From an uncultured Roseovarius sp. (GTDB taxonomy: Bacteria; Pseudomonadota; Alphaproteobacteria; Rhodobacterales; Rhodobacteraceae), in NCBI GenBank assembly GCA_951812895.1, contig OX638333.1, positions 4,320,001-4,384,000 on the forward strand: a stretch of 64,000 bases of DNA, read 5' to 3'. Numbering within the stretch: the stretch's first letter is position 1; each line of letters begins with the position of its first letter. Shown piece by piece: positions 1-56,978 of the stretch. The position numbers and the translations under genes are program-made. A model generated the notes under the pieces. The model was not told where the DNA came from. It worked only from the letters and a program-made list of their open reading frames with translations, and did not search any database.

Positions 1-93
1 GGCGCGGAGGCGAAGTTTGACGGCAAAACTGCGTTGGTGTTCATTCGCTTTGCCCAGATGGCGATTTCGGTGTTTGAATTGAGGCCGACATGA
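1..93 (+). CDS. C-terminal end of an unknown protein (partial)
   Basis: The first reading frame is open from the window edge to a TGA at 91-93, and this stop overlaps the start of the next gene as ATGA. Only about 30 residues are visible, ending FELRPT, with no motif I recognise. The overlap implies translational coupling to the YcaO gene, so this gene probably belongs to the same pathway. Its identity lies outside the window. Confidence 0.6.
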   Translation, partial: GAEAKFDGKTALVFIRFAQMAISVFELRPT

Positions 94-1301
94 AGCACAC
101 GACTAAATCCTACTACAGCGGCACACACCGCACCCGATCGCCGAGCCGGACCGTTGAAGTCGTGCAGCCCCATCTGGCTGCCATGGGCATCACCCGGGTG
201 GCCAATGTGACCGGGCTGGACAGGATCGGCATTCCGGTGGTCAACGCACTTCGACCCAATTCCAGGTCTTTGTCGGTCTCACAGGGAAAGGGACTGACAC
301 TTGAGGCCGCGCGGGCCTCGGCCATTATGGAGGCGATCGAGGGGTTTCACGCAGAAGACATCGATCTGCCACTCGTCGAGAGCAGCTACGACGACCTGCA
401 TGACCGGCACCGTCTGATTGATACGGACGGGCTGGCGTATTTGAGCGGCACGCATTTCGACCGGGCACGCTCAATCCTCTGGGCAGAAGGTCACGATCTG
501 GTCACCGGCGATCCGGTTTTGTTGCCGTCCGAAATTGTGCACACCGATTACACCTTGCCACGACGCCCGCATGCCGGTTGCTTTGTGGCAAGCACCAATG
601 GCCTGGCCTCTGGCAATCACCCACTGGAAGCTATCGTGCACGGTATTTGCGAAGTCATCGAGCGCGACGCTCATACACTTTGGGAGCATTTACCAATGGA
701 CGAAAAGGCCACGACGCGGATTGATCTGGACAGTGTGGGCGACCAAAGCTGCCGCTTTGTGATTGAGACGCTGAAGGAGGCGGGAATGTCAGTCGGTGTT
801 TGGGACATGACCGGCGATGTTGGTGTCGCGACGTTTCACTGTCTTATTACCGACAAGCAAGTCGAACACGGTCATTCCGGGGGCGGAGCGGGCACGCATC
901 CAAGTCGCGACATCGCCCTTTTGCGTGCGCTGACGGAAGCCGTACAGGTCCGCACGAACTACATCACTGGCGCAAGGGATGATCTGCGTGATGACGAGTA
1001 TAAACTGTCCGGCATCGAGCGAAAGACCCGCTATGCCGAAAGCCTGATGGCGATGCGGCACGACCCGCCGGTGCAGTTCGAAGATGTGCCATCGCAGGCG
1101 CTGGACACGCTGGAAGGAGATTTAGATTGGGTGGTGACACGGCTGGCAGCCGCCGGCATAGAAGAGGTTATCACAGTTGATCTAACGAAACCGGCATTCG
1201 ATATCCCCGTTCACCGTGTTGTCATCCCCGGGCTGGAAGGGCCGCACGATCACGATGATTACTGCCCGGGCCATCGGGTGTGCAGGCGTCTGACGCAATG
1301 A
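90..1301 (+). CDS. YcaO-family ATP-dependent cyclodehydratase/thioamide-type enzyme
   Basis: 403 residues covering a full YcaO domain. Visible family signatures are MEAIEGFHAED (about residues 80-90), STNGLASGN (168-176), HGICEVIERDA (184-194) and ALTEAVQVR (280-288), which supply the glutamates of the ATP/Mg site, plus the C-terminal RVVIPGLEGP block near 378-387. YcaO enzymes activate backbone amides with ATP to make azolines, thioamides or amidines in peptides and proteins. There is no PxPxP tail of the kind found in azoline-forming members; the tail ends GHRVCRRLTQ. The next gene is a TfuA-like protein overlapping by ATGA, and YcaO-TfuA pairs are known for peptide or protein thioamidation, so thioamide formation is the favoured chemistry (inference). 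The start at 90 overlaps the preceding stop. The family call is secure; the substrate is inferred from the repeat protein encoded downstream. Confidence 0.93.
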   Translation: MKHTTKSYYSGTHRTRSPSRTVEVVQPHLAAMGITRVANVTGLDRIGIPVVNALRPNSRSLSVSQGKGLTLEAARASAIMEAIEGFHAEDIDLPLVESSYDDLHDRHRLIDTDGLAYLSGTHFDRARSILWAEGHDLVTGDPVLLPSEIVHTDYTLPRRPHAGCFVASTNGLASGNHPLEAIVHGICEVIERDAHTLWEHLPMDEKATTRIDLDSVGDQSCRFVIETLKEAGMSVGVWDMTGDVGVATFHCLITDKQVEHGHSGGGAGTHPSRDIALLRALTEAVQVRTNYITGARDDLRDDEYKLSGIERKTRYAESLMAMRHDPPVQFEDVPSQALDTLEGDLDWVVTRLAAAGIEEVITVDLTKPAFDIPVHRVVIPGLEGPHDHDDYCPGHRVCRRLTQ

Positions 1302-2608
1302 TCGTTTTCGCGGGCCCCACACTTGATGCGTCGGAAATCCATGAGGTGCTGGACGGGGTCGAGTTCAAACCTCCGGCGCGCACGGGCGATATTTACAAGG
1401 CCTGTGACGAGGGACCCAAAGCCATTGGGTTGATCGATGGTTTCTTTGAAGGTGTCCCTGCCGTCTGGCACAAGGAAATCCTGTGGGCGCTTGATCGGGG
1501 TATCGCAGTGTACGGAGCTTCCAGCATGGGGGCTTTGCGGGCGGCCGAACTGCACGCGTTCGGTATGATTGGGGTCGGCAGGATTTTTGAAGCCTTTCGC
1601 GATGGCCAGTTGGAGGACGATGACGAAGTCGCGCTACGCCACGGCCCACAAGCCTTGAACTACATGGCCCTGTCCGAACCGATGGTCAACATCCGCGCCA
1701 CCCTGGACAGCGCCGTCGCGTCGGATGTTTTGGATCAAGGAATTGCATCAAAACTATGCGGGTTGATGAAAGCCATGTTCTTCCCGAATAGATCGTGGGA
1801 CGCCCTGTTTGCACATGCCTCCGACAAGGGTTTCAAAATGGAGGCCCTGCAGAAATTTCGGGATTGGCTGCCCGAAGGCCGGGTCGATCAGAAACGTCTC
1901 GACGCGCTCGAAATGCTGGCGCTTTTGGCGTCGCATGAACCTAAGCCAGCCAATACCAGCCACGCCGAGTTTACCTTTCAACACACTGCGATGTGGGAGG
2001 ATCTGAAACGCAAATGCGACAATGCCGAGCCAGACCTGCCCGTCATGCTAGTCCTCGATCAGGTCCGGCATGACCCAGAGCTGTACCAGATCCTTCGAAG
2101 GCGAGCTGCTGAAGCACTGTTGAACAAGGCAACCCACGAGGTGCCGCACACCGCACTGGATCAGGCCTCTACCCGGTTTCGCAAGGAACACAAGCTTTAC
2201 ACGGGCACTGCATTGGACGCCTGGCTTGCCGAGAATGGTCTCGACCTGGCTGCATGGCAGGACAGTCTAAAAGAGGATCTGGTTTTGTCGTCTGTCATCG
2301 CTGAAAATCCCATGGCCTTCAGAAACGCGCTGCTGCTCGCGATGAAGAAGGACGGCACGCACGACATATACATTCAAGAGGCTCAATCCAAGGCAGCGAC
2401 CTTGCACAGCGCGGGTTTTGACAGGCCTACACCTGTCGATCTGGGGCTGACACCGGCGGCCTTGTTGATGTGGTATTTCGAAGAGTTTCGAGACGAAGCT
2501 GTGCCCAATGATCTGAACGATTTTCTGATCAACAATGATTTTTCAGACCGCGAAGAATTCGAACAAATGATGGCGCGGCAGTTTGTCCTGTGGCAAGAAC
2601 AAGCGTAG
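1298..2608 (+). CDS. TfuA-like protein, YcaO partner, with long C-terminal extension
   Basis: The N-terminal part matches the TfuA core: MIVFAGPTLDASE at the start, then IGLIDGFFEGVPAVWHKEIL and GIAVYGASSMGALRAAEL, and a following GRIFEAFRDG segment. TfuA proteins accompany YcaO enzymes in trifolitoxin and thioamide pathways and are thought to help deliver sulfur. I chose ATG 1298, which overlaps the ycaO stop as ATGA and gives the usual TfuA start; a GTG 18 bases upstream would add six residues. The product is 436 residues. The core occupies roughly the first 170-200, and the rest (from about FKMEALQKFRDWLPEGR onward) is helical, charged and unassigned. This extension may recognise the substrate. 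Gene order and overlap place it in one transcription unit with its neighbours. Confidence 0.88.
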   Translation: MIVFAGPTLDASEIHEVLDGVEFKPPARTGDIYKACDEGPKAIGLIDGFFEGVPAVWHKEILWALDRGIAVYGASSMGALRAAELHAFGMIGVGRIFEAFRDGQLEDDDEVALRHGPQALNYMALSEPMVNIRATLDSAVASDVLDQGIASKLCGLMKAMFFPNRSWDALFAHASDKGFKMEALQKFRDWLPEGRVDQKRLDALEMLALLASHEPKPANTSHAEFTFQHTAMWEDLKRKCDNAEPDLPVMLVLDQVRHDPELYQILRRRAAEALLNKATHEVPHTALDQASTRFRKEHKLYTGTALDAWLAENGLDLAAWQDSLKEDLVLSSVIAENPMAFRNALLLAMKKDGTHDIYIQEAQSKAATLHSAGFDRPTPVDLGLTPAALLMWYFEEFRDEAVPNDLNDFLINNDFSDREEFEQMMARQFVLWQEQA

Positions 2609-3987
2609 GGAAGTTCATAGGGCAGGCGCGTTTGGCATATGTAGAAACCGAACACAGCGGCGGAACGCGATTCCGCTTGTTCCCGCAACTGCCATCACTT
2701 GAGCAGCAGCAGGAGCCGGAAACCGTCTGGGTGTCGTCGCCTGCGGGCACGGTTTTACCCGGCCCGGCCGACCACCGGATGTATGTGATCGACCCGGTGG
2801 GCAAGGAGCGCGCGTACGGCTATTACCCTGGTCCCGGTGGGTCGACCTTTCACTACCGCCCGCCATGGCGCGGTCCGGTCCTGCCAGAGGCGCATCCCGA
2901 TCCAGAGGGGCATTTCGATCATCTGGAAATTGGCACTTATGCGTTTGAACAAGCCCACGCTTTCGGCGCCATACGATTCACGATGGACATCTGGGAGCGT
3001 TATTTCGAGCGCCCCCTGCAATGGCATTTTCGCGATTACTACGACCGGCTGGAGATCCTTTTTCTGCGCGGGCTCGACAATGCTTTCGCAGGGTTCGGAT
3101 CGATCGAGATCGGATCTTATACCTCCAAGAAAACCGGTACGTTTGTCGAGTTTGGTTTGAGTTTTGATATTTTGTCCCACGAATTGGGGCATCTTATCAT
3201 CTACAACGAAATCGGCCTTCCGGGGACGCTGGAAGTGGATGGTGAATATTTCGGCTTCCACGAATCCGCGGCGGACATGGTCGCGCTGATTTCGCTCTTG
3301 CACTTTGACAGCGCCACCGTTGGCCTGATGGAAAACAGCCACGGCAATCTATATTCCTTCAATCGTCTCAACCGTTTTGGCGAAGTGTCCGACAACTGGC
3401 AGCTCCGATCAGCGTCGAATGACAAAACACTCTACGATTTCAAAGATGGGTGGACCTATGAACACAGCCTGTCGCAGGTTATGACCGGGGCACTTTTCGA
3501 CATCTGGGTTGATATCTTTCACGAGAACCTTTTGGATGCAGGCCTTATCTCGCGCGACCTTGAGGAACTGTCCGACCGTTTGGAAGGCAATCCGGAGTAT
3601 GAGGCCGTGATCCAGCCGTTGTTTGATGAGGCCTACGCCAAAAACCGCGGCGGTTTCGCGGACGCACTAATTGCCTCGCGCGACTACATGGGTTTCGCCA
3701 TGGCTGCGCTTTGGGAAAGACTGTCGATCGAAACCCTGGATTTCGCGGATGTCTATGAGACCTTCGTCGAAGTTGACCACGACATGACGCAGGGGCGGTT
3801 CCACCGCATCATTCATGGCAATATGCGCCGTCGGGGCATCGGTGTTATCAAGGCCGGCCCGCGGTTGAAGCCACCCGACAAGAAAAGCCACGCATTCTCA
3901 GATCGCACCGCGACGCCCATGGATGCGTGCGGCTGCAGTCGGCGCTTGCCATATGCCCTGCGCCGGGAAGCAGCCGGGAACTCGTGA
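2590..3987 (+). CDS. Putative gluzincin-like zinc metallopeptidase
   Basis: A 465-residue protein with SHELGHLIIYNEIG at about 196-209, that is the HExxH zinc signature (His197, Glu198, His201), followed 24 residues later by FHESAADMVAL with Glu225 placed as the third zinc ligand of gluzincins such as the M4/M36 thermolysin-like families. A later EHSLSQVMTGALFDIW segment (291-306) resembles the helix after the active site in those families. No signal peptide is seen, so it should act in the cytoplasm. The best open start is GTG 2590, overlapping the tfuA gene by 19 bases; TTG 2632, preceded by AGGGCAGG, is an alternative. Being sandwiched between YcaO/TfuA and the repeat protein, it is a candidate maturation (leader) peptidase. 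Peptidase fold is well supported; exact family and role are inferred. Confidence 0.7.
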   Translation: MARTSVGKFIGQARLAYVETEHSGGTRFRLFPQLPSLEQQQEPETVWVSSPAGTVLPGPADHRMYVIDPVGKERAYGYYPGPGGSTFHYRPPWRGPVLPEAHPDPEGHFDHLEIGTYAFEQAHAFGAIRFTMDIWERYFERPLQWHFRDYYDRLEILFLRGLDNAFAGFGSIEIGSYTSKKTGTFVEFGLSFDILSHELGHLIIYNEIGLPGTLEVDGEYFGFHESAADMVALISLLHFDSATVGLMENSHGNLYSFNRLNRFGEVSDNWQLRSASNDKTLYDFKDGWTYEHSLSQVMTGALFDIWVDIFHENLLDAGLISRDLEELSDRLEGNPEYEAVIQPLFDEAYAKNRGGFADALIASRDYMGFAMAALWERLSIETLDFADVYETFVEVDHDMTQGRFHRIIHGNMRRRGIGVIKAGPRLKPPDKKSHAFSDRTATPMDACGCSRRLPYALRREAAGNS

Positions 3988-4155
3988 TTCTGAGCCAAGC
4001 AGTCGTTCGAAATCAATGGGCCGCATTCAAGAGTAGACGATACGCAGCTCAAGGGTGCCTTGCGAAAAAAATGGCGACAGGCGCAAGCTTTATGTGCGAT
4101 ACATGGCTCTGAGTGGGCGCTGCAAGACCCACCAGTGCTTTGGGAGAACATGAAC

Positions 4156-4767
4156 ATGGGCGACAGACTGGTAAATTTCTCGACAATCCTGCTTTTCGGA
4201 CGAGAGATGGATGATTTGGTTAATATGGAGGCCGATAGCGTCAACAAGCCAGAACTCGACGAAAACAAGAAACCCATCGAAAAGACAAAGCGCCCCGAAC
4301 AGGACGACAAAACCAATTTCGTGGACAGCCAGTTGGCCGCAGGAAATGCCCGTTTCGCCCGTATTTTCGGCTTCAGCTTTGAAGGGCATTACTACGATCT
4401 GGCGCGCCCTCAGATTTTTCTTGTGCATGGCGAAGGTGCGCCCGCGGAAGATGCCAAAGCCGTTCAGGAGCGCGGACGCGGCAGCGTTGATCAGGCGGGC
4501 CTCGCGGTGCGTAACGTGAAATTTGCCGATGACCTGAAGGTTTGGGCTTATGAAAAGTCGGACTTCTCTGTACGCATGGATCCTGAAATCGGTCCTCTGG
4601 AACAAATCCTGCTCGAGTCTGAACTTGGCGGGGACGGCGGCTATAGCGGCGGCAAGGCTTATAGTGGCGGCAAGGCCTACAGCGGTGGCAAGGCCTATAG
4701 CGGCGGTAAAGCTTATAGCGGTGGTAAAGCCTATAGCGGCGGCAAAGCTTTCGGCGGCAGCGACTGA
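4156..4767 (+). CDS. Candidate RiPP precursor with six C-terminal YSGGKA repeats
   Basis: A 203-residue protein without recognisable family. Residues 1-160 are charged, with no signal peptide or membrane segment. Residues 163-198 are six perfect YSGGKA hexapeptides preceded by GGDGG and followed by FGGSD and the stop. ATG 4156 is preferred because GGGAGA lies 8 bases upstream; ATG 4150 has only 3 bases and longer starts have no ribosome site. It follows the peptidase gene after 168 bases. A long leader-like body plus a repetitive Gly/Ser/Lys/Tyr tail beside YcaO and TfuA is what a multi-core modified peptide substrate would look like. There is no Cys in the tail, so thiazoles are excluded; oxazolines on Ser or thioamides on Gly would be possible. 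It could instead be a structural protein whose tail is modified. Function is inferred from context. Confidence 0.75.
   Translation: MGDRLVNFSTILLFGREMDDLVNMEADSVNKPELDENKKPIEKTKRPEQDDKTNFVDSQLAAGNARFARIFGFSFEGHYYDLARPQIFLVHGEGAPAEDAKAVQERGRGSVDQAGLAVRNVKFADDLKVWAYEKSDFSVRMDPEIGPLEQILLESELGGDGGYSGGKAYSGGKAYSGGKAYSGGKAYSGGKAYSGGKAFGGSD
4642..4749 (+). repeat. Six tandem 18 bp units encoding YSGGKA
   Basis: Six in-frame 18 bp units, each coding for YSGGKA without any amino-acid change. The units differ at synonymous positions (TAT/TAC, AGC/AGT, GGC/GGT, AAG/AAA, GCT/GCC), so the peptide is conserved while the DNA has diverged. Confidence 0.97.
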
Positions 4768-4785: not shown

Positions 4786-5271
4786 TCACGTTGCAGAGCT
4801 ATTGATATAGCGTTTGTGAATTTTGGTGCTGTCTTCTGCGACCTGGTGAAACCCCAGACGCTGGTAAAAATTGCGAGCGCGGTTCCCTTTGACCAGTGAC
4901 AGGCTCACGTTCTTGTTCTCTTTGCCGGCCTCAGCAATCGTTTCATTTATAAGATGCGTACCGATCCCTTTGCCCCGGGCCGCCTCCACCAGATGTAACT
5001 GATCCAGACAGAATTCGGTGTCGGTATGGGACACCTGGATCCAGCCTATGTCTTCTCCATCCAACGTGATGATTCTAACCTCATTGGCAATATAGTAACT
5101 GCGGAAGGCGCTTTCGATCTCATCTTGTTTCCAGGCGTCGAGCGCGCTCAGCAAAGGTTTCATTGAGCTCATGTACAGGGTGCGCGCAAAGTCGAAATCT
5201 TCGGCACGTCCGGGCCGCAAGGCAAATGTCGGTGGCGCAACACCCGGATCAGACGATCCTGCTTTGGCCAT
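4786..5271 (-). CDS. GNAT-family N-acetyltransferase
   Basis: 161 residues with a single acetyltransferase (GNAT) domain. The acetyl-CoA-binding motif A is QLHLVEAARGKGIGTHLI (about 93-110, RxxGxG type), and NRARNFYQRLGFHQV near 130-145 is the usual motif B region. The acceptor cannot be told from sequence. The start ATG at 5271 shares its A with the TGA of the cyclase gene, so the two are translated in a coupled way. The gene is convergent with the repeat-protein gene, with 18 bases between the stops and no obvious terminator. Confidence 0.9.
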   Translation of the reverse strand: MAKAGSSDPGVAPPTFALRPGRAEDFDFARTLYMSSMKPLLSALDAWKQDEIESAFRSYYIANEVRIITLDGEDIGWIQVSHTDTEFCLDQLHLVEAARGKGIGTHLINETIAEAGKENKNVSLSLVKGNRARNFYQRLGFHQVAEDSTKIHKRYINSSAT

Positions 5272-7034
5272 CAGCTTAGACCTGCCATTTTCAACCCCTC
5301 AATCAGGCGCTCTCGCGGTTCTGGGTTGCGGTCGGGCGGCACGTTTGCCCAGTGTTTCATCGTGAACTCAGGATGCGTGGCCAGGATTTGTGCCGCATGC
5401 TGTTTCGCTTCATCCATACGCCCCAAAAGCGCGTTGCTGGCCGTCAACATGCGGTATGCTTCTGTCTTGTCGTGCATCTGACCGAGTGTGCGGATCGCGC
5501 GCTCATAATCGGTCATATCAAAGAACGCTTCACCCAGATGCCAAAGGTACCAATCCGGGTAATACGGGTTAAGCCGCATGGCCCTTTCAATCAGTTCCAC
5601 CGCGCGCTCCGGCTCTCCATATACGCTGGCCGAATGGCCCATCTCGGCAAGGATATCTGCGTCATTTGGGTTGTATTTGATTGCCCGTTCATACGCTGCC
5701 AGTGATTCATCATGACGGCGTTTGTAAAGACAGGCATTGCCCAATGCCGCATGCCCGCGCGCATCATCAGGATCCAAGCGCAGTGCGGTTTCCGCCTTGA
5801 GGATTGCATCGTCCAGGGCTTCTTCGGGGCGCTCGGTCCAGTTAAACCGCCACGCATCGTTAGAGGTGCGCGAAATCGAGGTGTATGAGACTGAATAATC
5901 AGGATCGATGGTTGACGCCTGCTCAAACAGACGTCGCGCATGAAGGTTCAATTCCCGCCTGGGCTGCTTGTACACTTCGCGTCCGCGCAGGATCAGCCCG
6001 TAAGCCCGGAGGTCTGAAGGCGCGGACCGCTGCTGGCGCTGGCTTTCTGCCTTGTCGATTTTCACTGAAAGACAGGACGCGATAACCGCTGTGATTTCGT
6101 CCTGAAACGTGAACACGTCGGCGATGGATCCGTTGAACTTCTCGGCCCAGACGGAACGCCCCGTGTCGGCTTCCAGCAGCTGGACCTGCACACGCAACTG
6201 ATCACCGGCCCGCTGAAACCCACCGGTCGTCAGATACCGCACGCCAAGCTTCTCCCCGATCTCTTTCGGCTGAAGCGGGCTGTTCTCAAAGAAACTCGAA
6301 GATTGTTGCGCGATCACATGCAGGTTGTTGAACCGCGTGAGATTCGAGATGATATCCCCCGTCACGCCATTGCAAAGATGCAAATTCTGCGCTTCACCCG
6401 ACATATTTTCCAATGGCAGAACCGCCACTGAATTGTCCGGAATATTCTGAGCCATGGCCGGCCGTTCTACAATTGCCGGGCTTTCCACTTGCAGCGGCTC
6501 TGCTATCCCCTGCGGCTCAATCTCGAAAACTTCGATCGGTTCATCTATATTTTTCAGCTCAGGCGTGCCCAGCGACTTCAGCGTTCCATTCGTGTTGCGT
6601 GCCATCTGCGACACAGCTTTTGACACGCAAATCCCGCCCGGTTTGGCCAGTGTCTGCAGCCGCGCGGCAACATTGATGGCGTGTCCGTGAAGGCCAAAAT
6701 GCCCTTCACGCACTTCGCCCACATTTATGCCGATGCGAAAGGAGATAGGGTCCTCGCCGGTGTGCCAGACCGCATCATTAGCGAATTCTTGTTGCATCGC
6801 GATGGCAAAGTTCACGCAGTTCGACACATTGTCAAAAAGCGCCAGCACACCGTCGCCCGCGATATTCTTGATAGACCCTCCATAATCTGTCGTGAGCTGG
6901 CGGATCAGAGTAATGGCATGCGAAATCCGGATGGACGTCTCCGTCTCATTGCGACTCATCAACCTGGAATAGCTGTAGACATCGGCCACAAGCACCGCAG
7001 TCAGGCTAAAATGTTTGACGTCCGTTGGCTCCAT
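5271..7034 (-). CDS. Class III adenylate/guanylate cyclase with TolB-like and TPR domains
   Basis: Domains in order: a class III nucleotide cyclase catalytic domain (about residues 8-170) with the metal-binding aspartates in AVLVADVYSYSRLM and IAGDGVLALF and the substrate/transition-state motif INVAARLQ; a TolB-like region starting NSVAVLPLENMSG; and C-terminal tetratricopeptide repeats (GHAALGNACLYKRRHDESLA and following). This architecture is common in Rhizobiales and Rhodobacterales. It should make cAMP (or cGMP) in the cytoplasm, with the TolB/TPR part acting as a sensor or protein-binding region. I chose the ATG of MEPTDVKHF at 7034; an upstream TTG at 7124 would add 30 residues of little domain character. 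It is followed by and coupled to the GNAT gene. What it senses is unknown. Confidence 0.88.
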   Translation of the reverse strand: MEPTDVKHFSLTAVLVADVYSYSRLMSRNETETSIRISHAITLIRQLTTDYGGSIKNIAGDGVLALFDNVSNCVNFAIAMQQEFANDAVWHTGEDPISFRIGINVGEVREGHFGLHGHAINVAARLQTLAKPGGICVSKAVSQMARNTNGTLKSLGTPELKNIDEPIEVFEIEPQGIAEPLQVESPAIVERPAMAQNIPDNSVAVLPLENMSGEAQNLHLCNGVTGDIISNLTRFNNLHVIAQQSSSFFENSPLQPKEIGEKLGVRYLTTGGFQRAGDQLRVQVQLLEADTGRSVWAEKFNGSIADVFTFQDEITAVIASCLSVKIDKAESQRQQRSAPSDLRAYGLILRGREVYKQPRRELNLHARRLFEQASTIDPDYSVSYTSISRTSNDAWRFNWTERPEEALDDAILKAETALRLDPDDARGHAALGNACLYKRRHDESLAAYERAIKYNPNDADILAEMGHSASVYGEPERAVELIERAMRLNPYYPDWYLWHLGEAFFDMTDYERAIRTLGQMHDKTEAYRMLTASNALLGRMDEAKQHAAQILATHPEFTMKHWANVPPDRNPEPRERLIEGLKMAGLS

Positions 7035-7832
7035 CCGATGTGTCGTCTCGCAAATGTCTGAGGTAAGCGCCTGATTTAGAGGATCATTGACGAGACTAGA
7101 GGGTTTAAGCTTCAACTGGAACAATAAATTTTTGAATTGGACTTTAGAAACCAGCTCGGTTTAGCACGGGTATCAGCCCAAACATCTCGCGCAGGTGCCG
7201 ATCGCCTTCGAAATGTGAGTTCAAAAGAATAGCGCCCAAAATCTGAGCGCACTAACAAGGGCTCGGACCCTTTTTTAACTACAGTGCTTTTAGTCCCCTG
7301 GCCCGATTGAACACAGGGGGACGTTGTATGGATTTGCATGCGTTGAGACATTGATCAAAGTAACCTGCGGATGTTGTCCAGAGAGCGCTTCAAGATACAT
7401 TTCTTGTTTCTTGGGGCAGCGGGAAGAAGCTTCGAAAATGTCACTGTTCGAATCTGTAAGCACTCAAACGACTTGTTCCCGGCGCCACTTTGAAACTGCC
7501 GTGCCTTTGTGCAGCAACAAGTGATCGTTTAAGCCATTTTCCGTATCTAATCAGCGCTCTTTCCTATTGTTTTTCGCGCGCCAGATCCCTTTACAGCTCC
7601 AGGGCACGAGTTACTGTTATCGACGGCTCTTCAGCACCACCGAGAATTGCGGCCGCATCCCTGATATCAGTTTTGTTTTGCTGAAAAGAGATGGTTTCAA
7701 TCCGCGCCAGCAGTTCTTCATTCGGAAATTCTCCAACTTAGTCCACGCGCAGATGGCGAAAACCCGAGCCGCTGCGAAGTCTCGTGTAGCTTGAAAACGC
7801 TGTTCTGAATCCGATGTGTCACTAGGGTGAAA

Positions 7833-8179: not shown

Positions 8180-8617
8180 TTACAACGTATGAGCTTCAAA
8201 AAAGAGACCAGAGCAATAAACCATGATTTCGCATTCGAAGAAAAACGCGACATATTCGATCGGGCCGATTAGCTCGCATTTGTTTGCCATCCGGTTCTTT
8301 ACCAGCCAGTTAGCGGAAACAAGTTGCAGTTTGATCCGGTGAGGCTTGTCCGGGTGTGAAAGCGGAGCCAAAACTTTCTGGCAAGGCGTGACAAAGACAT
8401 TCTCCTCTGGCCAACCCTTTCCGAAAGCATTTGTATGAATTTGAATGGGCGGCATGATCCAGAGTTGGCTCGGCTCAACTTTCTTTTGATAAACTTCTTT
8501 TAGTTCCTGATATCGCCCGGCAAGCCTGTCGAATACGACATCACCGGAAGCAAGGTTTTTTGCAGGTCTCATGGCGCCATCTTCATGCACCTGAATCATT
8601 GTGTGCCCAAGCATCAT
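8180..8617 (-). CDS. Hint-domain-like protein lacking the catalytic cysteine
   Basis: 145 residues that align by eye to the Hint module at the end of the preceding gene's product: LASGDVVFDRL matches LSAGDKVLTLDDG, NVFVTPCQKVL matches LIVSPQHRIL, and FFFECEIMVYCSGLFFE matches the FLCDSHQVVFSEG region. The protein begins with MMLGHTMIQVHEDG where the upstream Hint has CFAAGTLITTDKG, so the nucleophilic Cys is missing, and the block-B His of SPQH is replaced by CQ. An autoprocessing reaction is therefore unlikely. ATG 8617 overlaps the upstream stop as ATGA, so it is co-translated with the RTX/Hint protein and probably acts with it, for example as a binding partner. A decayed duplicate of the Hint domain is the alternative. 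Confidence 0.65.
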   Translation of the reverse strand: MMLGHTMIQVHEDGAMRPAKNLASGDVVFDRLAGRYQELKEVYQKKVEPSQLWIMPPIQIHTNAFGKGWPEENVFVTPCQKVLAPLSHPDKPHRIKLQLVSANWLVKNRMANKCELIGPIEYVAFFFECEIMVYCSGLFFEAHTL

Positions 8618-11325
8618 GCGCTTTTAAGCGCTTCCTGACACCAGTGCCGCTTTTGGATACCTTGATTATGAAACGATTTAGTCAGCAATGGCTTGTTGTT
8701 TGCAAAGTGCCTTTGCGCAAGTCTACGTCCGGGGCGACCTTTGACGATCTCGCGTGCGGATTTTGGTGCCCTCGACAGCTGAGTATTGGGAAACAATGAC
8801 AGAATTTCCTTGCGGGATGCGCGCGAAACAGCTTTGAGCGCTTCTTCACCAGTGAAAAGCGTTTCAGTTGGCGCCCCTTCCGAGAAGACAACCTGATGGC
8901 TGTCGCACAGGAAATGCCAATACTCGATGCCGCTTTCGGGCTCGATTACGTCAATGCCTGAAAGCTGCGTAAGGTGCTTGGCCGCGACCAACACCTCGTG
9001 GGTGCCAAACATACGCAACGCTATTTTCGACTGTACTAAGATTCGATGTTGGGGAGATACAATCAGATCCCGCTTTGGGAAGTGCTCTGCCAATGCGCCT
9101 GCCGAGACGCGAATTGGTCGAAACTCCGGTTTGACCTTCAAGTGCTGCGATGAGAGCTTTTGCGATCCAATCCAACGAATATTTTGAAGTCCGTCGTCAA
9201 GTGTCAGAACTTTGTCACCAGCGCTGAGTTGTTCAACCGGAACTTCACCTTTGTCGGTGGTAATCAAAGTGCCCGCTGCAAAACAAACGATATTTTCAAT
9301 CTCAAAGAACGTAACAGGTGTGCCGTCAGCCATGGTGAAACTGCCGGACAGACCACCAGCAAGGTCATCTGTATTGGAAAAAGTGATATCCGCGACCGAG
9401 ACATCCGGCGTTAGTTGCAGTGTGTCGCCATTAGTTTCCGCCCCTTCACCACCAACGATGGTTACTGCGGCATTGCCGGTGCCGGTTGTGTCCAAATCCT
9501 GCAGTGTGAAATAGTCGTCGCCGTCACCACCGCTAACCGTATCGCCCTGATCGACGGTGATATGGTCATCACCGTCGCGACCAAATACAAAGTCGGCGCC
9601 GGTACCGCCATCAATCGTATCATTCCCGCCATCTGTGAATATCCGATCCGCGCCTGCGCCACCCAGAACGGAATCATCTCCCTCCCCGCTCAGAATGGAA
9701 TCGTCGCCATCGCCACCGTCGATAGAATCGTTGTCATCCCCGCCAGTGATGGTGTCGTTATCGTTCCCGCCAATGAGCGTATCGTCCCCACCGCCACCAA
9801 GGATCAGGTCGTCGCCATCCCCACCGTCGATACTGTCATTGCCCTGCACAAGATCGGTAGCCGTGATGACCACATTATCCACCCGACCGTCGGTAGAGAA
9901 GGTGTTCGTGGTTGCGGTGTTCGTTATGACTAGTGTCGAATTGTTGGTGACCGGTGTGAAGGTAAAGCTGACAGCATTGGTGCTATCGTTGAGAACGGTG
10001 TGCGTTTCCGATGCAATCACGGTCCCGGTGTCATCAAGGATTTCTATACGGAAAGTATGATCGGCAACGCCTCCGTTTTCCTCAATCAGATCGAGAGACA
10101 GGGTATGTTCGACCCCTACCTGCGCGATAAAAGTGCGCTCGACAGAGTCACCTGCCGGTCGATCATTGGTGTTGAAACTCAGGCTGCCGAGCACATTTAC
10201 CGCGGGGAAAAACCCGTCAAAGTTCCCGTCCACCAACGTCCAGCCTGCTGTTCCAAGCGAGAAATCACCGTTGAAGATTTCGTTGCCGTTATCCAGATTA
10301 TCTCCGGCGAGGCTATCGTTCCCCGCGCCACCCGTTATCGTGTCATCTCCGCTGCCACCGGTGAGGTAGTCAGCGCCAATGCCACCATCCAAGGTGTCGT
10401 TGCCTGCGCGCCCGGCGAGGGTGTCATTGCCATCTTCACCGCTCAGGGAATTGTCTCCCGATGAGCCGCTGACAACGTCGCTACCATATGATCCGACAGC
10501 GTGCTCAAAATTTACAACTGTTTCAACATCACCATTCACCCCGCCTGCGGCGTTGAGAGTTCCGGTCCCTGCCTCCAGATCCAGCTCAACAAATTCAGCG
10601 GTTGTGCCGAACGCATCCTGATAGCTGACGGTGTCGTCACCATCACCGCCATCCAGATGATCGGTGCCGAATCCACCCGAAACCAGATCGTTATCAGCAC
10701 CGCCATCTATTGTGTCGCTACCACCGGCACCGGTGATCGTGTCATCACCACCATTGCCCAAGATTATGTCATCCAGATTTGTGATGACGTCTCCCCCTCC
10801 ATCCGCCGGAAGATTGGAATCGTCATAACCAAGGCCCATAACCTCGCCGGTCTCTTCACCATCAACTTCTGCGGCCAAGGTTGCAGTTGAGGATGCGGTG
10901 GCGCTCACGCCAAATAAATTGACTAGGTTCGGTGCAGTGATTTGGACCTCGCGCACACGAAGATCATCTGGAACGCCGAAATACACGTCACCGTTCTCTA
11001 GTTGCGCCAGGCCGTAGGAACCGCTTACGGTCGAACCATCAGCAAGCGTCAGCGTCATAAAATATGTTGATTCGGCATCCAGAGTCGACGAGCGGAAAAC
11101 ACCTCCGGCTGTGAACGACAACGTTTCTGCGGCAAAGCCGGCATCGTCCGACCAAATAGATCCGTCGTTGTTGGCATCATTCCTGAAGAGCGTAATCTCT
11201 TCCAACTGGGTGTGGTCGTAGGTCCCAAGGACTACGTTCGGGTTTTCGTTGCTAAAATTTGCTTCGTTGGTGTCAAGCTTGGCAAAATTGCCCAGATAGA
11301 ACACTGTCGTTACGTGCACTACCAT
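8614..11325 (-). CDS. RTX calcium-binding repeat protein with C-terminal Hint domain
   Basis: 903 acidic residues. Order: N-terminal domain of unknown type (1-175); RTX nonapeptide repeats of GGxGxDxLx type (about 184-345); a beta-sandwich-like insertion (about 346-490) with HTFRIEILDDTG and a final GRVDNVVI, resembling carbohydrate-binding or DUF642-like folds; a second RTX block (493-610); and a Hint domain (681-825) with CFAAGTLITT (Cys681), VSPQHRIL (His760) and CDSHQVVF. RTX blocks fold on calcium outside the cell, and such proteins are usually type I secreted; no Sec signal is visible. The Hint domain would self-cleave at Cys681. ATG 11325 has GAGGGG eight bases upstream. No type I exporter genes are in the window. 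Likely a large secreted surface protein or toxin-like protein; activity unknown. Confidence 0.9.
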   Translation of the reverse strand: MVVHVTTVFYLGNFAKLDTNEANFSNENPNVVLGTYDHTQLEEITLFRNDANNDGSIWSDDAGFAAETLSFTAGGVFRSSTLDAESTYFMTLTLADGSTVSGSYGLAQLENGDVYFGVPDDLRVREVQITAPNLVNLFGVSATASSTATLAAEVDGEETGEVMGLGYDDSNLPADGGGDVITNLDDIILGNGGDDTITGAGGSDTIDGGADNDLVSGGFGTDHLDGGDGDDTVSYQDAFGTTAEFVELDLEAGTGTLNAAGGVNGDVETVVNFEHAVGSYGSDVVSGSSGDNSLSGEDGNDTLAGRAGNDTLDGGIGADYLTGGSGDDTITGGAGNDSLAGDNLDNGNEIFNGDFSLGTAGWTLVDGNFDGFFPAVNVLGSLSFNTNDRPAGDSVERTFIAQVGVEHTLSLDLIEENGGVADHTFRIEILDDTGTVIASETHTVLNDSTNAVSFTFTPVTNNSTLVITNTATTNTFSTDGRVDNVVITATDLVQGNDSIDGGDGDDLILGGGGDDTLIGGNDNDTITGGDDNDSIDGGDGDDSILSGEGDDSVLGGAGADRIFTDGGNDTIDGGTGADFVFGRDGDDHITVDQGDTVSGGDGDDYFTLQDLDTTGTGNAAVTIVGGEGAETNGDTLQLTPDVSVADITFSNTDDLAGGLSGSFTMADGTPVTFFEIENIVCFAAGTLITTDKGEVPVEQLSAGDKVLTLDDGLQNIRWIGSQKLSSQHLKVKPEFRPIRVSAGALAEHFPKRDLIVSPQHRILVQSKIALRMFGTHEVLVAAKHLTQLSGIDVIEPESGIEYWHFLCDSHQVVFSEGAPTETLFTGEEALKAVSRASRKEILSLFPNTQLSRAPKSAREIVKGRPGRRLAQRHFANNKPLLTKSFHNQGIQKRHWCQEALKSA

Positions 11326-50846: not shown

Positions 50847-51498
50847 CGCACAATCTCCTAAATGACAAACTGGTTAAGTAGTCGTCAGTCCACAACCCGC
50901 CATGCGCGATGAGAAAAAACACTCCAGCTCCTAACAGTCCAAACTACTATTGGTGGAATTCGTCTCATTTGCAGGAAATGGCCAGATTGCTACCGGCCTC
51001 TGCGCCGATGACCAAGGTTGGATACCCCTGGCCAATACCGTGATGCCTGAAAGATAAATTCCGTTCATACGCGAATTCTGGTGTGTGGAAAATCAAAGGA
51101 GCCCTGATCTTCAAACGCGAAATCATTGTAATTGAGCAAAAAAACGGTAAGGCAATCATATCCTATAGCTCAGTTGGCAGAGCGCAGGGTTAATATCCCT
51201 GAGGTCGTAGGTTCGAGTCCTGCTAGGCGTTAGGGGGGTATTGATTGATTATCAAACACCCCCCAACATTCACTTTTAATTTGTCCATGAATCACGCCCA
51301 ATTCCAAAGGATGAATCAAGATCATTTTATTCGCTTCAATTGGCCAATAAGGCGGCCAGATCCGCGCCCATTGGCAGCCACGATTCAATATCTCTGTAGT
51401 CGCGGTACGAGACTAATAAAAATACTGGAAGTTGGTAAAATCGCTTTCATAGCTGGATAGCAAAAATGCTGATAAAACACTCTTTCGCAGTCGGAACA
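50847..51498. other. Intergenic region holding a degenerate tRNA-like sequence
   Basis: 650 bases without a coding gene. The tRNA-like element at 51159-51231 is the only structure seen. Confidence 0.6.
51159..51231 (+). pseudogene. Degenerate tRNA-like sequence
   Basis: D-arm GCTC-AGTTGGCA-GAGC, a 5 bp anticodon stem CAGGG/CCCTG with loop TTAATAT, and T-arm GTAGG-TTCGAGT-CCTGC are all intact. The acceptor pairs in only four of seven positions, and the loop would give anticodon AAT, unusual in bacteria. No CCA follows. A decayed tRNA gene or integration-site remnant is the likely reading. Confidence 0.6.
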
Positions 51499-56879: not shown

Positions 56880-56978
56880 ATCCCTAATTGCTGTTCATGA
56901 CGGTGACAGCCCTAGGCGCGTCACCATCATACCTCCCTGTTGGACTTCGGCCGAGCTTATTGCTCGGCCTTTTTTTTT
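56880..56978 (+). ncRNA. Candidate small RNA with CCUCCC motif
   Basis: Downstream of the LysR gene lie a hairpin (GGTGAC 56902-56907 with GTCACC 56920-56925, inner GCC-CTA-GGC), a single-stranded ATACCTCCCTGTTGG, and a strong terminator. This order, hairpin then anti-Shine-Dalgarno tract then terminator, is typical of alphaproteobacterial regulatory RNAs. The 5' end is not fixed. It could instead be the 3' end of the LysR transcript. Confidence 0.4.
56949..56978 (+). terminator. Rho-independent terminator
   Basis: GGCCGAGC-TTATT-GCTCGGCC, a perfect 8 bp stem with 5-base loop, followed by nine T. Confidence 0.93.

Follow-up and report, generated by a model that had tools for sequence, protein, structure and literature searches.

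A conserved module with a repeat-tailed protein

We analysed a stretch of 64,000 nucleotides (hereafter the window) from an uncultured Roseovarius sp. (GenBank assembly GCA_951812895.1, contig OX638333.1, positions 4,320,001 to 4,384,000), which sits within a single 4.54-Mb contig, and found at its start an operon of four genes. These encode a YcaO enzyme, a TfuA partner, a thermolysin-like (gluzincin-type) peptidase-like protein with an HELGH motif, and a protein that ends in six YSGGKA repeats. The four genes recur across Alphaproteobacteria as a conserved set. We consider it reasonably probable that they form a multi-core pathway resembling those of ribosomally synthesised and post-translationally modified peptides (RiPPs), in which YcaO and TfuA would thioamidate the repeats and the peptidase would free them.

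The YcaO gene (90-1301, plus strand; 403 residues) gives the single PF02624 match of its genome (1.5e-83), and this genome holds one TfuA. The TfuA gene (1298-2608, plus; PF07812 match 5e-47) more likely starts at the ATG at 1298, which overlaps the YcaO stop codon as ATGA, than at the alternative GTG at 1280. The gene for the HELGH protein, a candidate processing protease, lies at 2590-3987 (plus; 465 residues from a GTG), and that for the repeat-tailed, precursor-like protein at 4156-4767 (plus; 203 residues, or 205 from the ATG at 4150). The six tandem YSGGKA units, which we propose as cores, span 4642-4749 (plus), and the acidic end of the protein, FGGSD and the stop codon, occupies 4750-4767 (plus). 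Neither the HELGH protein nor the repeat protein matched any Pfam or NCBIfam family at E-values up to 0.1.

The initial annotation, made from the sequence alone, had described four overlapping or adjacent genes, and we located the open reading frames (ORFs) exactly where it had put them. It had also suggested that a partial gene at 1-93 belongs to the operon. We dropped this candidate: its frame is open for 49 codons only, it has no relatives in neighbouring loci, and among the ORFs of at least 40 residues in 83 loci it matches only itself. Two genes of the conserved neighbourhood had been overlooked, both on the minus strand: a GNAT acetyltransferase (4786-5271; Pfam GNAT, 9.9e-12), candidate for a facultative N-acetylation step, and a class III cyclase with a TPR C-terminal half (5271-7124; Guanylate_cyc, 1.1e-9, and TPRs), a candidate sensor or output.

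The repeat tail and its conserved domain

The precursor-like protein consists of a conserved domain of about 160 residues and a C-terminal tail of 4- to 7-residue repeats. The six YSGGKA copies of the window are identical as protein, and in their DNA all six wobble columns vary while none of the 12 first- and second-position columns does. The chance that six variable columns among 18 are exactly the wobble ones is 1 in 18,564. Because variation is confined to the wobble columns of the unit, this pattern identifies the repeats as the product of neither chance nor recent slippage. Three or more units in a row are present in 50 loci, and in these 19, 18 and 238 of 263 columns vary at codon positions 1, 2 and 3, respectively; the runs were picked by protein pattern, and their protein identity is thus partly built in. 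Since the wobble positions are saturated, we read the copies as old and constant as protein.

We compared the tails of 79 loci, i.e., the window, 73 loci on genome contigs that were matched in a scan with the precursor alignment, and five from a draw of genomes (see below). Self-match of the tail reached at least 0.8 in 56 of them, with a period of 5 in 39, 6 in 14, 7 in two and 4 in one. The 16 tails of the Rhizobium group have a period of 7 with self-match between 0.71 and 0.79, and the repeats of L068, L079 and L080, also below 0.8, are short or uneven (L numbers designate loci). The C-terminus is acidic in 74 of the 79 proteins (69 D, 5 E). Outside the last 45 residues, identity was 35-47% in five pairs of proteins with different tails and 44-56% in five pairs with the same or similar tails. 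A core that varies next to a domain that is conserved is what one expects of a multi-core RiPP precursor, and the tail fits this picture. The position of the gene beside YcaO and TfuA, together with this conserved domain and variable core, agrees with what is required of a thioamidated-RiPP precursor, the leader role of the domain being putative. Searches of solved structures with the profiles of the precursor and of the peptidase returned short matches only, largely to designed or repeat proteins, none of which we consider meaningful.

The modifying enzymes and the peptidase

The best solved relative of the YcaO is MJ1094 (6pe3, 1.7e-31), which we take to be of the McrA-thioamidating type. 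The enzyme scored below the curated cut-offs of TIGR03266, the YcaO of McrA-glycine thioamidation (246.6 bits, cut-off 365), and of NF040716, YcaO_for_S12 (35.2 bits, cut-off 700). Likewise, TfuA scored below the cut-off of NF033432, the TfuA of McrA-glycine thioamidation (218.2 bits, cut-off 235.2). The YcaO and the TfuA genes are adjacent in the window, as in thioamidated-RiPP loci, and the YcaO is probably a backbone-thioamidating enzyme.

The TfuA profile matched the structure 6xp8 with an E-value of 3e-60, the match being limited to profile positions 3-216. Beyond this core, the protein has a C-terminal extension of about 200 residues. At least 150 residues follow the core in 56 of 58 linked TfuA, those of L029 and L103 lacking the extension. 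In the window protein, the extension weakly matches TIGR04500, a putative peptide-maturation family (5.6e-4). In a metagenome-assembled genome (MAG) of Kiloniellales, YcaO and TfuA are fused in one ORF (L020:1155-4001), and the precursor tail of this locus has no tandem repeat.

In the peptidase, residues H197, E198, H201, E225 and D229 are invariant in 35 sequences, and the HExxH motif and the downstream Glu, a putative zinc ligand, of M4 peptidases can be recognised in the sequence. Weak matches to M4 (PF01447) were found in 16 of the 35 relatives, with a best value of 0.0018, and the window protein itself had no PF01447 match. There were weak M36 matches too among the relatives.

Conservation across Alphaproteobacteria

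We searched the 73 loci using the window proteins as queries against six-frame ORFs, with a threshold of 1e-5. A linked YcaO was found in 52 of the 73, a linked TfuA also in 52, the peptidase in 67 and the cyclase-TPR protein in 68. One of two types of GNAT was present in 40 loci, the second type in 25. Gene order and strand are kept in 47 of the 48 loci that have YcaO, TfuA, peptidase and precursor, the exception being L067, where the peptidase is placed ahead of the other genes. The comparison with related genomes thus bears out the proposed four-gene module. Clustering of the ORFs flanking L011-L083 yielded, among its 25 largest clusters, mostly lineage-specific or antisense ones.

The precursor was present in six of 387 drawn alphaproteobacterial genomes, including that of the window. 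In the five further loci from this draw, TfuA and the peptidase always adjoin the precursor, and YcaO does so in four. A phylum-wide draw searched with the peptidase profile gave matches in 15 of 397 genomes. Eight of those in other genomes were strong (around 1e-105 or better), one at L103, which was known already, and seven at additional loci (L121-L127). YcaO, TfuA and peptidase are adjacent in all seven, of which L121 repeats L051 and has the precursor. Two of the six genomes with weaker matches were inspected (L128, L129) and had no YcaO/TfuA pair at the locus; nor was there one alongside the peptidase paralogue of the window genome itself (L130). In the plasmid collection, the precursor domain was found in 51 records, 49 of Rhizobium and two of Paracoccus.

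The remaining loci, L122-L127, form a second clade. All six encode YcaO, TfuA and peptidase together with a protein related to the precursor over the C-terminal half of its domain (hhalign probability 98.1%; in L125-L127 the match to the precursor profile is by itself weak, about 1e-3). This related protein ends in one conserved non-repeat tail, LPGKRSPxxYA...HRxGRL, and is probably a single-core relative. The TfuA ORFs of these loci are short. Because L122-L127 have the module with a non-repeat tail and without the cyclase, the four-gene module appears to predate the repeats and the link to the cyclase.

Tail types follow the YcaO lineages

We mapped tail classes on the YcaO tree of 57 loci, pooling SGAKV, SGARV, SGSKV and SGAMV as one class. 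The 12 classes need 11 changes, which is the minimum, and 200 shuffles need at least 27; many forks are weak, with 19 of the 64 inner branches of the tree with YcaOs left open. Taxonomic order, with three states and loci without rank omitted, needs six changes on the YcaO tree. On the peptidase tree (79 rows), the minimum of 17 changes likewise suffices for 18 finer tail classes. YSGGKA tails lie on one YcaO branch that spans Rhodobacterales and Hyphomicrobiales, and within Roseovarius both YSGGKA and SGAKV systems occur, each on the matching YcaO branch. Tail type is therefore co-inherited with YcaO across orders. This fits enzyme-substrate matching and is no proof of it, because linkage alone would give the same result.

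Loci without a linked YcaO/TfuA pair

Twenty-one loci lack linked YcaO and TfuA: the 16 of the Rhizobium group (14 named Rhizobium, and L025 and L055, named Rhizobiales bacterium), L024, L021, L062, L019 and L071. For L019 and L071, the contig stops before the pair could appear. TfuA was found elsewhere in the genomes of L062 and L019. The Rhizobium-group loci and L024 form a clade of 17 loci (98 by the Shimodaira-Hasegawa-like approximate likelihood ratio test) that keeps precursor and peptidase. In front, this clade also keeps a more distant cyclase, which in the Rhizobium group is matched at 1e-64 to 1e-70. A single loss of the linked pair would be the simplest account of this clade, since in its tree neighbour L067 the pair is present and the tail, of period 7, is similar; the tree itself gives no direction. 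In all 16 Rhizobium-group loci, the precursor is followed by a gene of about 110 residues (L006:8594-8926 and relatives) with no Pfam match.

All 16 Rhizobium-group genomes have a PF07812 TfuA elsewhere. We considered these unlinked pairs as partners of the clade and set them aside: the nine loci examined (five genomes) are of another type, and the five of their YcaOs included in the tree form a separate branch. It is not clear that such pairs act as partners. Eight of the nine encode a TPR protein akin to the cyclase's C-terminal half, with a BTAD domain in one of three scanned. The TPR link of these other YcaO/TfuA pairs (L084-L092) thus recurs outside the precursor family. A conserved gene of about 88 residues follows TfuA in L085, L087, L089 and L091.

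The cyclase-TPR gene

The Guanylate_cyc domain of the window cyclase scored above the cut-off (38.6 bits, cut-off 21.9), and the protein has metal-site and NxxxR-like motifs. Before the catalytic NxxxR it reads GHAIN, at a place where GD-type motifs are usual. GH is also found at this place in the cyclases of L012, L014, L016, L018, L040, L050 and L068, and GD in those of L023, L026, L027, L029, L031, L034, L054 and L067. Substrate specificity may differ between the two groups.

In the genomes of the genus that we compared, close orthologues of the cyclase occur only with the module. Among these 60 genomes, seven have a TfuA and six a cyclase orthologue (1e-100), all six among those seven and all with YcaO, TfuA, peptidase and precursor alongside (the window, L038, L012, L139, L140 and L143). 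Both genes are thus found in six genomes, TfuA alone in one and neither in 53 (Fisher test, 1.4e-7, relatedness ignored). The window genome encodes eight class III cyclase domains. Beyond the genus, cyclase and module are linked less strictly.

The seventh TfuA of the genus, in genome G003, is of another type, with a different protein set beside it. About 5 kb from this other YcaO/TfuA pair lies an ORF with imperfect ARR(V/I)-rich repeats (L141:1-684), whose N-terminal part reads, in our judgement, like an NHLP-type leader. It is possibly another multi-core precursor.

Other features of the window

We noted three features away from the module. A 903-residue protein encoded at 8614-11325 (minus) has RTX-like GGDGDD repeats and, by eye, a Hint-domain-like stretch. 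The Rfam model of SorX, a singlet-oxygen resistance RNA, matches at 56908-56975 (plus; 49.4 bits, cut-off 46.6). An Rfam tRNA match of 52.1 bits lies at 51162-51227 (plus), where ARAGORN called no tRNA.

Proposed pathway and alternative explanations

In the pathway that we propose, the 203-residue protein would be the precursor. Its domain of about 160 residues would fold and serve as leader or scaffold, and each of the six YSGGKA units would be a core. YcaO and TfuA would turn a backbone amide in the repeats into a thioamide. With one thioamide in every unit, each repeat would gain 15.98 Da and the whole tail 95.86 Da. The thermolysin-like peptidase would then release modified peptides from the tail, each roughly one repeat long (six residues in the window and four to seven in relatives), and the GNAT may acetylate them in some lineages. 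A thermolysin-type cut might fall before a hydrophobic residue, which most repeat types contain; ARGAN and GRSSG have no such residue. The cyclase-TPR protein probably connects the product to cyclic-nucleotide signalling.

Several observations weigh against this pathway. One comes from the 17-locus clade, which keeps precursor, peptidase and a cyclase with no linked YcaO/TfuA. The initial annotation had named the occurrence of the repeat protein without this pair in relatives as a finding that would refute its proposal, and this is the case in that clade. A tail that is conserved yet unlinked disfavours a strict dependence on a neighbouring YcaO. The linked pair is missing from L021 too, and the MAGs of L021 and L024 yielded no TfuA. 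L104 has no adjacent YcaO, four Paracoccus loci miss the peptidase, and the YcaO/TfuA-linked tails of L020, L026, L100 and L101 are not tandem repeats. No cyclase match was obtained in L051, L074, L075, L077, L080 and L104, the match in L102 is only weak, and none of L122-L127 has a cyclase beside the module within 16 kb (there is one marginal match, 7e-4, in L124). There was no exporter at a constant place among the 25 largest flank clusters; ABC-type ATPase genes occur in 32 of the 73 flanks, at scattered distances. The possible effect of linkage on the co-inheritance of tail and YcaO belongs to the same side. Finally, the repeats share no universal residue, ARGAN repeats lacking Ser and Thr and RADMTA repeats lacking Gly. 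The tail had been put forward as the target of modification, with Gly or Ser as the site. Its core-like variability agrees with the first part of this proposal; the second part is not supported, and no modified residue can be named because some repeat types lack Gly and others Ser.

The likeliest alternative, which we nevertheless regard as improbable, is that the tail is never released. YcaO and TfuA would thioamidate the repeats of a mature protein, much as McrA is modified in place, the thioamide-bearing tail would bind a metal, a polymer or a partner, and the peptidase-like protein would trim or chaperone it. A conserved domain of about 160 residues is large for a leader, the Paracoccus loci do without the peptidase, and an end in D or E shared by 74 of 79 proteins despite their differing repeats suggests that the end of the tail matters in the final product. 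However, the peptidase is present in 67 of the 73 loci, its HExxH...E site is invariant in the 35 aligned sequences, and periods of 4, 5, 6 and 7 suit excised units better than one fixed structure.

The target of YcaO and TfuA could instead be another protein or the conserved domain, e.g., its invariant VHGxG loop, and the tail would then be an unmodified low-complexity binding segment. We judge this quite unlikely. Four Gly residues of the domain (G17, G94, G96 and G148) are indeed invariant in 39 sequences, the Rhizobium clade retains the tail without a linked pair, and non-repeat tails are found beside YcaO and TfuA. Yet the Rhizobium clade retains the domain as well, and tail type tracks the YcaO lineage with as few changes as there can be. 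Moreover, the second clade has only the C-terminal half of the domain, plus a conserved C-terminal tail, and its stretch aligned to VHGxG loses those Gly residues.

The formation of azolines or oxazolines on Ser or Thr of the repeats, rather than of thioamides, has very little probability. Most repeat types do have Ser or Thr, but the ARGAN tails have neither, TfuA is the constant partner, the nearest solved YcaO is MJ1094, and no E1-like or ocin-ThiF partner was seen among the named neighbour genes, no search having been aimed at one. We give just as little credit to the view that the tail has nothing to do with YcaO and forms an adhesin-like segment or a short beta-helix of pentapeptide repeats: Pfam Pentapeptide matches 10 of 39 members (best 2.4e-7) and no period is more frequent than 5 (39 of 79), but pentapeptide repeats have a period-5 A(D/N)LxX pattern throughout, which is absent from the window protein (period 6, no Pentapeptide match), and we set this reading aside on the existence of periods 4, 6 and 7, with the four-gene module being conserved besides.

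Relation to known systems

For the thioamidation and release of repeats, the nearest logic is that of the thiovarsolins of Streptomyces. According to the sections of the source drawn on here, a repeating precursor, a YcaO and a TfuA (varA/varY/varT) suffice there for short N-acetylated thioamidated peptides, no specific protease is reported for the cluster, and an endogenous acetyltransferase is suggested (PMC6511847). The likeness, as far as these sections go, lies in a YcaO and a TfuA with a tandem-repeat precursor, although the tandem core, YSGGKA, is unlike the thiovarsolin APR. The present precursor differs in having 203 residues with a conserved domain of about 160, whereas precursors of 20-120 residues were searched for in that paper, and the locus differs in its own peptidase, its cyclase-TPR gene and, in some lineages, a GNAT. 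New with respect to the thiovarsolins are the precursor, the dedicated peptidase and the cyclase. No VarO heme-oxygenase-like protein or other var gene was among the named conserved neighbours, no search having been aimed at them. Among curated families and solved structures, our YcaO and TfuA come closest to those of McrA glycine thioamidation in methanogens (TIGR03266, NF033432). The differences are that both of our proteins fall below the curated cut-offs, that TfuA has about 200 extra residues, and that the putative substrate matches no Pfam or NCBIfam family.

In the portions covered here, a 2021 survey by Malit et al. counted many TfuA clusters of Proteobacteria, Rhizobium among them, and predicted precursors with RiPPER (PMC8120280), whose default search range is 20-120 residues according to the covered part of PMC6511847. 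The survey may well have counted such YcaO/TfuA pairs. At that default, which the survey is not known to have used, RiPPER would miss a 203-residue precursor. Those portions of PMC8120280 do not mention the HELGH peptidase, the cyclase or the repeat family. Text searches of the papers covered for the strings YSGGKA, SGAKVSGAKV, GGKAYSGGKA and SRSGGALSRSGG found none of them, in line with the earlier remark that no described family with such a substrate was known, and literature searches found no description of the operon. The gene set is apparently undescribed.

In signalling of the RRNPP type, short peptides are cut from propeptides and TPR domains act as their sensors. In the present case, the TPRs form one half of a class III cyclase protein and the host is Gram-negative. 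We suggest, tentatively and with clear doubt, a form of Gram-negative peptide signalling in which the precursor would be thioamidated and cut by its own zinc peptidase into peptides of four to seven residues, which the TPR half of the co-inherited cyclase would sense. A RiPP would thereby become a cyclic-nucleotide signal, and every lineage would use a repeat 'word' of its own and the matching enzymes.

If our reading of the module is true, it adds a family of thioamidated-RiPP precursors that would be overlooked by precursor searches limited to short ORFs. The naturally switched tails, with periods of 4 to 7 and many sequences, would be a ready series for the study of recognition by YcaO and TfuA. 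The frequent cyclase-TPR partner would provide a concrete idea of the purpose of the peptides, in loci whose 25 largest flank clusters showed neither a constant exporter nor a constant resistance gene.

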